DNA from: an uncultured Treponema sp.
GTDB taxonomy: Bacteria > Spirochaetota > Spirochaetia > Treponematales > Treponemataceae
Direction of reading: 5' to 3'
NCBI GenBank assembly: GCA_946628495.1
Contig: CAMOWQ010000010.1
Coordinates: 1-34,563, forward strand
Length of the DNA stretch: 34,563 nt
Shown: positions 4,846 to 9,841 of the stretch, piece by piece
Layout: the number at the start of each line of letters is the position of its first letter
Numbering within the stretch: the first letter of the stretch is position 1
Program-made: the position numbers and the translations under genes
The notes under the pieces: generated by a model
Seen by the model: only the letters and a program-made list of their open reading frames with translations
Databases searched by the model: none
Told to the model about the DNA's origin: nothing

Positions 4846-4937
4846 ACGTAAACCTTAAAATAAATTATAGCGTGCATGGACGGTAAAAAATTTGTGCCCG
4901 TAAGAATTTTTTTCTCTTTTTATTTACAGTCTTGATA

Positions 4938-5204
4938 AATATTTATAGAATACACACGGGTATTTCAATGGAACTGTGTGAAAATCACAGACTGAATGCG
5001 CAACGGTAATAAGAGCGGTAAAACGGAAAAAACGGCTGCAATCACTGAAAGTAATTTTGGGAAGATTTGTTTTTTCTCTGCCGGAACAGGCGGGTTTCTT
5101 TAAGTCCGGAAACTTTGGTATCCGTTGGAATTTTATAATTCCAGGTATTCCGTATGGAGTGCTATCCATTAATTTTGGGAACTGCGCAGATTCGGTTCCC
5201 GGAG
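4938..5204 (+). promoter_or_regulatory. Cobalamin (B12) riboswitch with L5-L13 kissing-loop expression platform next to the SD
   Basis: 'GTGTGAAAATCACAGACTGAATGCGCAACGGTAA' (about 4975-5008) matches the conserved cobalamin-riboswitch core. 'CACTGAAAG...TTTTGGGAAGA' (B12-box-like) and 'AAGTCCGGAAAC' follow in the canonical order. Hairpin GGGAAC(5177-5182)/GTTCCC(5195-5200) abuts GGAG at 5201. Its loop carries TGCGCA (5183-5188), complementary to TGCGCA in L5 (4997-5002). A TonB-dependent receptor lies downstream. Confidence 0.9.
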
Positions 5205-5211
5205 ATAAAAA

Positions 5212-5742
5212 ATGAAAAAATCAATTTTCTCATTTGTAAGGCTGCCTGTTGCAGTACTTTTGTTGTGTTTTGCGTTCGTTCTTACATCATGTGGACCGAT
5301 GGTTAATCCTCAAAACAATCCTACAGCTACACCTGTTGCTTTAAATGATAACAGTAAGCTTATCGGTACATGGGAATCGTCTTTCGGCGAAATCTATGCA
5401 ATTGCAAAAACAAGTCTTTCTAACGGCGGTTCTTGGGGCGACTGCTATGCCGGCGACAATCTTGTAGTTCTTGCAGAAACAGAAACAAGTGGAATCATCT
5501 TTATTAAATATACAAGAGCAATGACTGCAGATTATAAGTATTCTACTGACGCTTCTGTTGCACCTGATGTTGGTAAATGGTATGCACTGGCTTACAAGAA
5601 TTTGACAGATACATCACTTTCTATTTCAGGAGCATATAAGGCAGATGGAAAATCTTCTGAAGATTCTCTTGAAAACGCAGTAAAAGAATTTACAGTTGAT
5701 AACGGCTATTTTGGAACTTACAGCGAATGTGTTAAAAAATGA
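5212..5742 (+). CDS. Small lipoprotein of unknown function, B12-riboswitch controlled
   Basis: Signal peptide and lipobox 'LLLCFAFVLTSC|GPMV'. SD is 'cggagataaaaaATG'. First gene after the riboswitch; its stop overlaps the next start (ATGA). Confidence 0.88.
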   Translation: MKKSIFSFVRLPVAVLLLCFAFVLTSCGPMVNPQNNPTATPVALNDNSKLIGTWESSFGEIYAIAKTSLSNGGSWGDCYAGDNLVVLAETETSGIIFIKYTRAMTADYKYSTDASVAPDVGKWYALAYKNLTDTSLSISGAYKADGKSSEDSLENAVKEFTVDNGYFGTYSECVKK

Positions 5743-7727
5743 AAAAACTGACATCTTTTGCCGTTTTTGTGTGTTTTTTCCGGATAATTGCAGCACAGGA
5801 AATTACACTTCCTCCGATTTTTACTTATATTGAAGATTCTCTTGTAGAACAGAAGGAAGTTTTAACGGCAGAAGATATCAGCAGGGCAAACGTAACAGAT
5901 TTGCCCTCTCTTCTTTCGTCCGCAGGCATTCAGATTTTATCGTATGGTGCTTACGGACTTGAACAAAAACCAAGCATGCGTGGTTTTACAGACGAGACTG
6001 TCCGTGTGATTATTGATGGAATCTGCGTAAACAATCCTCAGTATGGAACTTTTGATTTTACTTCGCTTAATCTTGAAGATATTGAACGTATAGAAATTGT
6101 TCGCGGCGGTTTTACGGAAAGTGTTTCTGATGAAGGAGCCGTTGGCGGTGCAATTTATATTTCAACAAGAAAACAGGAAAAAGGGCAAAATTTTTCGTCG
6201 GATACTTCATTCTCTTCTTTTTTTAATATAGAAAAACCAGTTGATACAATAACCCAAGGGCTTGGGTACAAAGGTCAGATTTCTGAACAGTCTTATTTGA
6301 ATTTAAATTTAAAAGGAACAACGGCAGAAAATAAATATCTTTATGAATCTGCATCTGGCAGAATAAGACAGCGTGAAAATTCTTCGGTATTGGATGGAAA
6401 TTTAAGTGCCGATTTTCTTCATTACTTTAAATCCGGTTCCTCTATGAACATAAGCGATTTATTTTATGCAGGAAAAAAATGTACTCCTGGATCTGCTTCC
6501 GGTGTGGAATATGGGGTCCAGCAGGATTATTCTAATAATGCAACCGTTCATTTTGTACATCCGTCGTTCATGGATTTGTGTCGTTTTGAAAATTCCTTTG
6601 CGCTTTTAGATTCAATACGATATTACGATACTCAAAATGCGCATTCTTCGCACCAGCTGAATACAGGAAAATATTCTGGAAGTGCAAATTTCTTTAAAAC
6701 AGGTATTTTGCGGCAGTCGGCAGGCATAACAGCTGAACTTTCCCATCTTAATTCTACAGATGACGGCATTCATACTCAGGGGGAATTTGCCATAAAGAGT
6801 ACATCCCGCCTGGAAATTCCTCTTGGTACCACAGAAAATGCTTCTAAAACGAAGAATATGCTTGATATTTCTCTTCCTGTTTCGTTTAAAGTATGTGGCG
6901 AGAATCTTGCATTTGTTCCAAAGTTTGGAATTGGATTTGAATTTTCAAAAATTAATGTTTTTGCAGATGTTTACAGAATGGTTCAGTTTCCGAATATGGA
7001 CGATTTGTATTGGGACGACGGTATTTATAAAGGAAATCCTGAGTTAAAACCCGAAACAGGGTGGGGCGGGGAAATTACGATGAATGTTCATGATGTTCTT
7101 CTTCCTTTTTCACTTTGTGCATTCACCAATTATTACGAAAACAAAATTCAATGGACATCTTTGTCTATGAACGACGTAAGTACATCAGGCATTCAGAATA
7201 ATTTAACTCAAACTTCCGAACCGAACAGCCATTCTAGTTCTGGCGGAAAATCTGGAATGGCGCCGCAAAATATTTCAAGTGCATTTTATTTTGGTATTGA
7301 TTTTTCGGCTAAGAAAGAATTCGCGGATGGTCTGATATGCTTTAAGATGAACGCGGAATATTTATATACAATGTTGCTTGATAAATCAAAAATTACGTAC
7401 GGTAAAAAAATAATGTGGACTCCCGATTTTGTGGCTTCTTCGTCATTGTTTGTAAATATTCCAAAAGCAGAAAAATTTCCTGGAGCATCGCTTGGTTTAG
7501 AAATAAATTATGTTGGAAAACGTTATATTTCAAATTTGAATATTTCTTTTATGAAACCTTATGTTCTTGTAAATATTGTTGGGGAATCAAAAAAGATTAA
7601 GGTTTGGTCTTGCAATCTTGTTCCTTATTTTCGTTTGAATAATCTATTAAATACAAGATACGAAAGTGTAGAAGATTATCCGATGCCGGGTATAAATCTA
7701 ACAATCGGACTTAAACTTAGCAATTAA
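5739..7727 (+). CDS. TonB-dependent outer-membrane receptor (BtuB-like)
   Basis: Signal peptide. Plug domain 'DLPSLLSSAGIQILSYGAYGLEQKPSMRGFTDETVRVIIDGICVNNPQYGTFDFTSLNLEDIERIEIVRGGFTESVSDEGAVGGAIYISTR'. C-terminal beta-barrel 'WSCNLVPYFRLNNLLNTRYESVEDYPMPGINLTIGLKLSN'. Confidence 0.92.
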   Translation: MKKLTSFAVFVCFFRIIAAQEITLPPIFTYIEDSLVEQKEVLTAEDISRANVTDLPSLLSSAGIQILSYGAYGLEQKPSMRGFTDETVRVIIDGICVNNPQYGTFDFTSLNLEDIERIEIVRGGFTESVSDEGAVGGAIYISTRKQEKGQNFSSDTSFSSFFNIEKPVDTITQGLGYKGQISEQSYLNLNLKGTTAENKYLYESASGRIRQRENSSVLDGNLSADFLHYFKSGSSMNISDLFYAGKKCTPGSASGVEYGVQQDYSNNATVHFVHPSFMDLCRFENSFALLDSIRYYDTQNAHSSHQLNTGKYSGSANFFKTGILRQSAGITAELSHLNSTDDGIHTQGEFAIKSTSRLEIPLGTTENASKTKNMLDISLPVSFKVCGENLAFVPKFGIGFEFSKINVFADVYRMVQFPNMDDLYWDDGIYKGNPELKPETGWGGEITMNVHDVLLPFSLCAFTNYYENKIQWTSLSMNDVSTSGIQNNLTQTSEPNSHSSSGGKSGMAPQNISSAFYFGIDFSAKKEFADGLICFKMNAEYLYTMLLDKSKITYGKKIMWTPDFVASSSLFVNIPKAEKFPGASLGLEINYVGKRYISNLNISFMKPYVLVNIVGESKKIKVWSCNLVPYFRLNNLLNTRYESVEDYPMPGINLTIGLKLSN

Positions 7728-9126
7728 GAGGAATCATTAAAGTGATTACGGCTCCTGTGTGTCCGTCTTCGCGATTGTTAGCTGTAATTGTACCGCCTAA
7801 GGCTTTTACAATTGAACTTGAAATAGAAAGTCCAAGTCCGGCTCCTCCAACCGCACGTGAATGTGCCGGATCGCCTCTATAAAATCGTTCGAAAATATGA
7901 GGAAGAACTTCGTCAGTAAATCCAGGCCCGTCGTCAATTTCGTATATGCACATTAAATTGCTTTGGGTTTCTGCTTTTAAAGCAATATGACACTGGTCTT
8001 TTGAAAATTTAATGCTGTTCGAAATTAATGCTGTTAATACCTGATGAAGAAGTTCTATATCTGTGTTAAAAAGTACATCGTCGTCCGAACTGAAATCGAT
8101 GTGAACGTTTGGAGAAATTGTTTCGAATTCATTTTTAAGGCGCAGGAACATTGTCTGGATGTAAAGCGGTTCCGAAAGCGGTTTTTCGTAGCCTGCTTCA
8201 AGTTTTGATATTTGCAGAAGGTTTGTTATAATTGCATTCATTGAATTTGCTTCTGTAATAATCATATTTAGCGAAGTTTCAAGCTGTTTTGGATCTTCCT
8301 TGCCCCATCGTTTAAGGAGCTTTGCCTGTCCTAGAATTCCTGCAACTGGAGTTTTTAATTCATGCGAAACATTACTTGTAAAATTTCGTTCACGGTCAAA
8401 ATCTGTACGAAGGCTTTCGAATAAACTGTTGAAGGTTTTTGCAAGTTCATCAATTTCGTTGTTGTTATTACTTACAGGCAGCAGTTGCTCAAGATTTGTA
8501 CTGCTTATTTTTCGTGCCTGATCTGTAATTCTCTTTACTGGTCGTAATGTAAGCCGGGTAATAAAAATAGAAATACAGAACGAGATTATAAAAATCGGAA
8601 TCATTGTAATAAGTTCAAGTTTTGGTACAACTTTTATAAGATTTAACGAAGAATCTCGTTCAATATCCATTGCAGTTTCAATAATGATGATGTCGCCCTT
8701 ATCGTCTAAAATTGGCATTGCATAGTAAAGAATATTTAAATCACCGTCTGCAAAAAAATCTTTCTGATAATACTGCATTGCACGTCCATGTGTTGTCTGC
8801 AAAAGCGGAAGAAAAGGGTCGTTTGTAAAAAGAATGTCGCCGGACTGCTCTTCGTAAATTGTGTAAGTCATGTAGTAAGGAATTCCCAGCAGTTCCGGCT
8901 GAAGGTTATTGATATCGTCTACGCAGATACAGAGAAGGTTTGCGGCATCTTCAAGTTCTATGCTCTGATTATAATTAATGGTTAGTTTTAAAAGCATTAC
9001 AAATACAGAGGTAAGAAATAGAACTACAACTGCAACAATCACCATAAAAAATATAGACAGGCGGGTTGCAATTGAGTTCATGAATTTTACTATATGTTTT
9101 TGCCGTGAACCTTGTTTCTTTTTCAT
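7717..9126 (-). CDS. Sensor histidine kinase (two TM, HAMP, HisKA, HATPase)
   Basis: 'NVSHELKTPVAGILGQAKLL' H-box, 'ALISNSIKFS' N-box, 'EIDDGPGFTDEVLPHIFERFYRG' G1/F boxes, 'GGAGLGLSISSSIVKALGG' G2. Confidence 0.95.
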   Translation of the reverse strand: MKKKQGSRQKHIVKFMNSIATRLSIFFMVIVAVVVLFLTSVFVMLLKLTINYNQSIELEDAANLLCICVDDINNLQPELLGIPYYMTYTIYEEQSGDILFTNDPFLPLLQTTHGRAMQYYQKDFFADGDLNILYYAMPILDDKGDIIIIETAMDIERDSSLNLIKVVPKLELITMIPIFIISFCISIFITRLTLRPVKRITDQARKISSTNLEQLLPVSNNNNEIDELAKTFNSLFESLRTDFDRERNFTSNVSHELKTPVAGILGQAKLLKRWGKEDPKQLETSLNMIITEANSMNAIITNLLQISKLEAGYEKPLSEPLYIQTMFLRLKNEFETISPNVHIDFSSDDDVLFNTDIELLHQVLTALISNSIKFSKDQCHIALKAETQSNLMCIYEIDDGPGFTDEVLPHIFERFYRGDPAHSRAVGGAGLGLSISSSIVKALGGTITANNREDGHTGAVITLMIPLNC

Positions 9127-9169
9127 ATTTATCTTTTGAAACTTTGTATAATTGTGTAAGGAAGATTTT

Positions 9170-9841
9170 TTAGACCATCATATAGCCAATTCCACGTACA
9201 GTTCTTATATATTCATCTTTAGTCTGCTGTGAAATTTTTGTACGAAGGTAATTTACGTAAACATCAACAGAGTTTTCTTCTATATAATAATCTTTTCCCC
9301 AGACTTTATCGATAATACTTGAACGGTTAAGCGCAATGTTCAGATTTTCGATAAAATATTTAAGGATAAGGAATTCCGTTTTTGACAGGAAAACCTGATT
9401 TCCCTTGATTGTTGCTGTCATATTCTGAATATTCAGTTCAAGGTCACGGTTTTTAAGAAGTCCGTTTGCTTTTGAATTTGCGGCGCTTCTTCTTAATACG
9501 GCACTTACTCTTGCAAGAAGTTCTTCAATTTCAAACGGTTTTGCAATGTAATCATCTGCACCGGAATTTAATCCGTTTACTTTATCGTAAGTTTCGTTTT
9601 TTGCAGTTACAAGAATAACCGGCACGCTTGAAGTTTTTCTAATGCGGCGGAGTACTTCTGTTCCTGTAATTTCAGGAAGCATTATATCAAGAAGAATTAA
9701 ATCTGGTTTTTCAGATTCAAATTTTTCCAAAGCTTCGCGTCCATTTCGTGCAAGAACTGTTGTATAACCTTCATGATTTAATTCAAGGTTTTCAAAATTC
9801 AATACAGTTTCGTCGTCTTCAACAATTAATATTTTCGCCAT
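9170..9841 (-). CDS. OmpR/PhoB-family response regulator
   Basis: Receiver 'KILIVEDDETVL...PDLILLDIMLPEITGTEVL...PVILVTAK...GADDYIAKPFEIEELLARV'. C-terminal winged helix 'LSKTEFLILKYF...VDVYVNYLRTKI...YIRTVRGIGYMMV'. AGGAG SD. Confidence 0.96.
   Translation of the reverse strand: MAKILIVEDDETVLNFENLELNHEGYTTVLARNGREALEKFESEKPDLILLDIMLPEITGTEVLRRIRKTSSVPVILVTAKNETYDKVNGLNSGADDYIAKPFEIEELLARVSAVLRRSAANSKANGLLKNRDLELNIQNMTATIKGNQVFLSKTEFLILKYFIENLNIALNRSSIIDKVWGKDYYIEENSVDVYVNYLRTKISQQTKDEYIRTVRGIGYMMV

Follow-up and report, generated by a model that had tools for sequence, protein, structure and literature searches.

Upstream of a predicted B12-uptake operon in an uncultured Treponema, on contig CAMOWQ010000010.1, lies a leader that, as read from its sequence, is a cobalamin riboswitch of the ordinary kind with a lineage-specific platform, corrinoid binding being expected from its family. 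The L5-L13 contact on which such a switch turns, and the register of that contact, are established by covariation among Treponema relatives. Very probably the leader represses the operon translationally, through L5-L13 docking and masking of the Shine-Dalgarno (SD); corrinoid binding, repression and masking are here what we infer. The window, by which is meant the whole stretch of DNA analysed, is 34,563 nucleotides long, and the parts of the leader up to the switching hairpin are as follows.

4923..4951, + strand: putative sigma-70-like promoter, TTTACA-17-TAGAAT, by consensus match
4956-4962 (ACGGGUA) with 5119-5125 (UAUCCGU), + strand: P2, 7 bp, around the aptamer, found in relatives
4970..5113, + strand: core of the cobalamin aptamer, aligned to positions 47-167 of the RF00174 model, with the B12 box at about 5103-5113
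5147..5160, + strand: hairpin AUUCC-GUAU-GGAGU between P2 and P13, conserved in relatives

A covariance-model search gave an RF00174 match at 4970-5113 (50.2 bits, E 8e-10), above the family's gathering threshold of 31.5 bits, and it is the sole such match in the 2.57-Mb, 82%-complete assembly. Both the B12 box and the P3-P6 core fall within the model alignment, and the box variant GGAAACUUUGG is conserved among relatives. An earlier note, made from the letters alone, had recognised a cobalamin riboswitch with a readable aptamer core and proposed a check with cobalamin covariance models; that check confirms it, and score, core and L5-L13 kissing with an expression platform all agree with membership of RF00174. 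The usual L5 consensus, UCCCG (PMC10653944), which is typical and not required, is replaced in the window by AAUGCG. As departures in L5 are compensated in L13, the leader is marked as a variant and its membership kept.

P2 recurs in every relative, usually with 5-7 contiguous pairs and never with fewer than three, and its two strands differ among them in a compensatory way (CGGGUA/UAUCCG in the window versus CGUGUA/UACACG in most others). The promoter consensus has one match at the leader, against 0.9 expected in shuffles. Since this promoter-like site ends at 4951, and most relatives have a similar -10-like box equally far from P2, the transcript probably starts at about 4957-4959, i.e., at P2, and P1 would be absent. 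The hairpin between P2 and P13 varies in its stem bases from relative to relative, yet keeps a C-GUAU-G or C-GUAC-G loop in almost all of them; at three loci (L030, L057 and L059) the counterpart of 5147-5160 is missing or altered.

Of 146 congeneric genomes, a set that takes in strains of Treponema bryantii as well as many Treponema MAGs, 65 have RF00174; across the family it is present in 115 of 246. The sub-type studied, defined by TTTCAATGGAA on the 5' side together with GGAAACTTTGGTA where the B12 box lies, was gathered from genomes and from GTDB contigs scanned with a pattern, which is short and has some matches that are unrelated or another riboswitch type. A first set of 87 loci yielded 34 distinct P5/P13 versions; a larger one, for which genomes were added and the filter tightened, comprised 103 loci and 32 distinct versions. 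Several loci are one genome in two collections and so distinct rows alone were counted. P13 was located independently of L5, as the best 8-bp stem and then SD and open frame. Because MAFFT misplaced the bulge when all rows were aligned, pairs in the full set were scored in register and those in an equal-length subset by pair counter. One contig labelled Alphaproteobacteria (JAKSVU010000094.1, locus L127) carries a Treponema leader and operon, probably through a binning error.

The elements of the contact and of the platform are these.

4993..5002, + strand: P5 (UG 4993-4994 / CA 5001-5002) with L5 AAUGCG at 4995-5000, found in relatives
5173..5176, + strand: U-tract directly 5' of P13, able to extend it by pairing with GGAG 5201-5204 (U.G, U.G, U-A, U.G)
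5177..5200, + strand: P13 hairpin, 8 bp, GGGAACUG (5177-5184) / CGGUUCCC (5193-5200), loop CGCAGAUU (5185-5192)
5185..5192, + strand: L13, with 5185-5188 pairing with 4997-5000, bulge 5189-5190, and 5191-5192 pairing with 4995-4996
5201..5204, + strand: Shine-Dalgarno GGAG, flush with the P13 3' end and 7 nt before the ATG at 5212

The register has L5 AAUGCG (4995-5000) paired with L13 CGCA-[GA]-UU, that is four base pairs, a bulge of 1-3 nt among relatives, and two more pairs. So counted, 201 of 204 L5-L13 cells are paired, a level reached in 0/5000 shuffles (mean 177, maximum 190), and the kissing proposed earlier is thereby borne out; the two P5 pairs, U4993-A5002 and G4994-C5001, are formed in 68/68 cells of 34 distinct rows. 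In the 24 equal-length rows P5, L5-L13 and P13 together are 99.2% paired by the pair counter, with two-sided changes at nine pairs; 0/500 shuffles came as high, and a shift of one column lowers pairing to 44%. Eight L5 types (AAUGCG, AGUGCG, GGUGCG, GGUGAG, GAUGCU, GAUGCC, GACGAU and GACGCU), each set against its own L13 in one shared architecture, give 48/48 pairs, a score equalled by only 2 of 40,320 L5-L13 re-pairings. A locus discovered after the rule was fixed (L209) has GACGCU facing GGCG-C-UC, with six out of six pairs fitting. Other natural combinations are GGUGAG / CUCAGGCCC (L083) and GACGAU / GUCGCUC (L069), for the latter of which an alternative pairing of GACGA with UUGUC was dropped for the register common to all rows. 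Most kissing pairs changed more than once on the TonB-receptor tree, which is poorly resolved at depth, and loops of the L022/L090 type have one outer kissing pair broken. The Treponema bryantii SIG99 loci (L025/L146) share the arrangement of hairpin and SD, with a longer L13, kissing loops that match in part only, a different start and a different lipoprotein N-terminus.

What then of the palindrome? The earlier note had correctly located TGCGCA at 4997-5002 and 5183-5188, GGGAAC and GTTCCC at 5177-5182 and 5195-5200, and GGAG at 5201-5204, and took the two hexamers to be self-complementary loops of identical sequence. That register is wrong. TGCGCA straddles loop and stem, with the CA of the first copy in P5 and the TG of the second in P13, and as the two stems claim its ends neither loop holds the whole of it and the loop sequences differ. 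By sequence, the palindrome is a coincidental by-product of a UGCG:CGCA contact that happens to have CA after it in P5 and UG before it in P13. Pairing of the loops over all six bases, permitting dimer kissing, would suit the two copies in the window, which 21 of 32 distinct rows also have; it is scarcely credible, given that C5001:G5184 is broken in 11/34 rows, that the outermost pair A5002:U5183 never co-varies, and that the CA and UG it would need are already paired in P5 and P13. In the other 11 of the 32 rows TGCGCA is absent from P13 and L5-L13 pairing is kept, and among the 26 distinct rows with TGCGCA at P5/L5, five have UACGCA or CACGCA in P13 and the pairing persists. A self-complementary sequence is thus not conserved within the loops, as it would be in a palindromic kissing or dimerisation element, and the suggested intermolecular loop pairing finds no support, the outer bases of TGCGCA pairing inside P5 and P13.

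P13 itself is paired in 271/272 cells of the 34 distinct rows, seven of its eight pairs have changed on both sides, its next-to-innermost pair is a U.G wobble in 30/34 rows, and alone it is predicted to fold at -10.6 kcal/mol. These compensatory changes uphold the SD-adjacent hairpin of the earlier note, with amendments: its 6-bp stem is one of 8 bp, in which U5183.G5194 and G5184-C5193 also pair, and, as P13 ends at 5200, the single base that was thought to separate it from GGAG is zero bases. On the other side of P13, the U-tract:GGAG extension appears in the minimum-energy fold and among relatives occupies 155/184 cells, compared with a linker-shuffle mean of 114 and maximum of 132. Its pairing is mostly wobble, it is absent in 8/46 rows, and at one locus (L051) an inserted A-U pair shifts U-tract and SD strands together. 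We infer that the U-tract could mask the SD.

The genes downstream, with a motif inside the first of them, are the following.

5212..5742, + strand: first regulated gene, for a lipoprotein of 176 aa with an LTSC lipobox and a small beta-barrel as predicted fold
5227..5231, + strand: conserved UUCUC at codons 6-7 of the first gene, found in relatives, may pair with the SD
5739..7727, + strand: second regulated gene, BtuB-like TonB-dependent receptor with Plug and barrel domains

The predicted lipoprotein structure has a pLDDT of about 97 in its core and weak lipocalin-like matches only. For the receptor the best NCBIfam model is TonB-B12 TIGR01779 (E 5e-22, below the curated cut-off), and BtuB is among its PDB matches. 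The order lipoprotein then TonB receptor holds at about 76 of 87 loci, and B12 uptake is the predicted function of the operon in this rumen/gut-type Treponema. At L080/L137 the first gene encodes a 665-aa exported TonB-receptor-like protein and there is no lipoprotein, and at L166/L193 the lipoprotein is not the first gene; both kinds retain leader and UUCUC. A two-component system (histidine kinase and OmpR-type regulator; 7717-9841, - strand) is convergent with the operon.

UUCUC lies at CDS nucleotides 14-21, near codons 5-7, in 47 of 51 distinct starts. The synonymous null (1000 shuffles) has a mean of 14.7 and a maximum of 24, with kinship among the sequences making the shuffles overstate independence, and later windows hold 0-3. 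Control gene starts have it in 15/312, some of these chosen for having it, and a pattern search of the window's own genome gave 16 TTCTC matches versus 11 for CTCTT, i.e., no notable enrichment. Could it simply reflect the protein, as Phe-Ser in the signal peptide, with no RNA element involved? The lipoprotein alignment has hardly any variation at F6 and S7, and yet this is rather unlikely, as codon choice preserves UUCUC in three frames (32, 14 and 1 starts; TTT TCT C, TTC TCA, TCT TCT CTT, ATT CTC), far in excess of the synonymous shuffles, and the motif is present too where a gene other than that of the lipoprotein comes first (the TonB receptor of L080/L137, and L166). SD:UUCUC duplexes exceed the synonymous null in strength by a modest margin (-4.87 vs -4.30 kcal/mol), and three of the four UUCUC exceptions still have SD-complementary letters; pairing of UUCUC with the P13 5' strand is slightly better than null (-3.90 vs -3.49), with no covariation. 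A tentative proposal, which may well not hold, is that UUCUC and SD form a start-codon hairpin stacked on docked P13, the stacking turning docking into masking and the U-tract being an alternative partner of the SD.

The mechanism that we favour would run as follows. The aptamer would bind a corrinoid, as its family membership suggests, and binding would hold L5 to L13, U4997-G5000 with C5185-A5188 and A4995-A4996 with U5191-U5192, leaving G5189-A5190 bulged. As P13 is stable alone, the ligand most likely acts on docking and not on P13 folding. Once docked, P13 would directly abut the SD, which the weak U-tract:GGAG extension, and perhaps the SD:UUCUC hairpin, would hide, so that initiation would stop. 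In the env8 riboswitch it is a bulge of 1-2 nt in the interloop helix that renders kissing dependent on cobalamin, and the docking that hides the ribosome binding site (RBS) is promoted by ligand (PMC10907184); as a bulged interloop helix there confers ligand dependence, the conserved bulge here fits control of docking. The fold of the whole leader did not have aptamer and kissing together, pseudoknots being outside the method.

That control is translational, as the earlier note predicted, is probable: the switching hairpin adjoins the SD, as in a translational riboswitch, and a search for a terminator-like hairpin between B12 box and start codon found none. Regulation by transcription termination in place of the SD could appeal to terminator-like matches at 5077-5094 and 5241-5255, of which the first is within the aptamer and the second within the gene; with P13 pinned to the SD in relatives as well, it is most improbable. 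Activating corrinoid riboswitches are known (PMC10653944), and here a duplex of UCCGGAAAC (5105-5113) with GUUCCCGGA (5195-5203) would be paired at 8/9 positions, the best predicted duplex in the area of B12 box and P13 3' strand being -11.7 kcal/mol. Without ligand the B12 box would then pair with the P13 3' strand and SD, and aptamer folding on B12 would free the SD. Activation of this sort is, though, very unlikely: in 29 relatives shuffled combinations give stronger B12-box:P13 pairing than the real ones do (-7.96 vs -7.53 kcal/mol), on which ground the B12 box was rejected as an antisequestor of the P13 3' strand, and repression by its own product is what one expects of an uptake operon.

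The leader has close parallels among known riboswitches. The marine metagenome env8HyCbl also has P13 docking by a bulged L5-L13 interloop helix and translational control (PMC10907184, PMC10653944), but its RBS is in the P13 terminal loop, whereas the Treponema SD is outside, flush with the P13 3' end. In Escherichia coli btuB, likewise a B12-uptake gene under translational control, L5-L13 kissing stabilises P13 and promotes RBS masking (PMC10653944); it has five contiguous kissing pairs, in contrast to the four, bulge and two of Treponema with SD contiguous with P13. The L13 hairpin of Mycobacterium tuberculosis ppe2 also comes partly from the translation start region, and ppe2 and metE there share the short fused P1-P3 arm (PMC11260477), though with uORF-based output and an L5 with three conserved C. 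P13 of the Priestia megaterium metE corrinoid riboswitch is stabilised by L5-L13 kissing too (PMC10653944); its output is a terminator and its L5 is UCCCG, from which the Treponema types (AAUGCG, GGUGCG, GAUGCU, GACGAU, GACGCU and others) depart. A search that fell short of the full literature found no published description of the Treponema form, whose lineage-specific traits appear to be an L5 outside UCCCG, an SD flush with P13 and a conserved motif in the coding sequence.

How a ligand-bound cobalamin aptamer alters its expression platform has been named as an open question (PMC10653944). The register of the contact is now fixed and a tempting palindromic reading of it removed, and these Treponema offer one short platform in about 30 natural forms, its L5-L13 compensated, its bulge constant and the SD flush with P13, so that the docking model becomes directly testable by exchange of natural loops.
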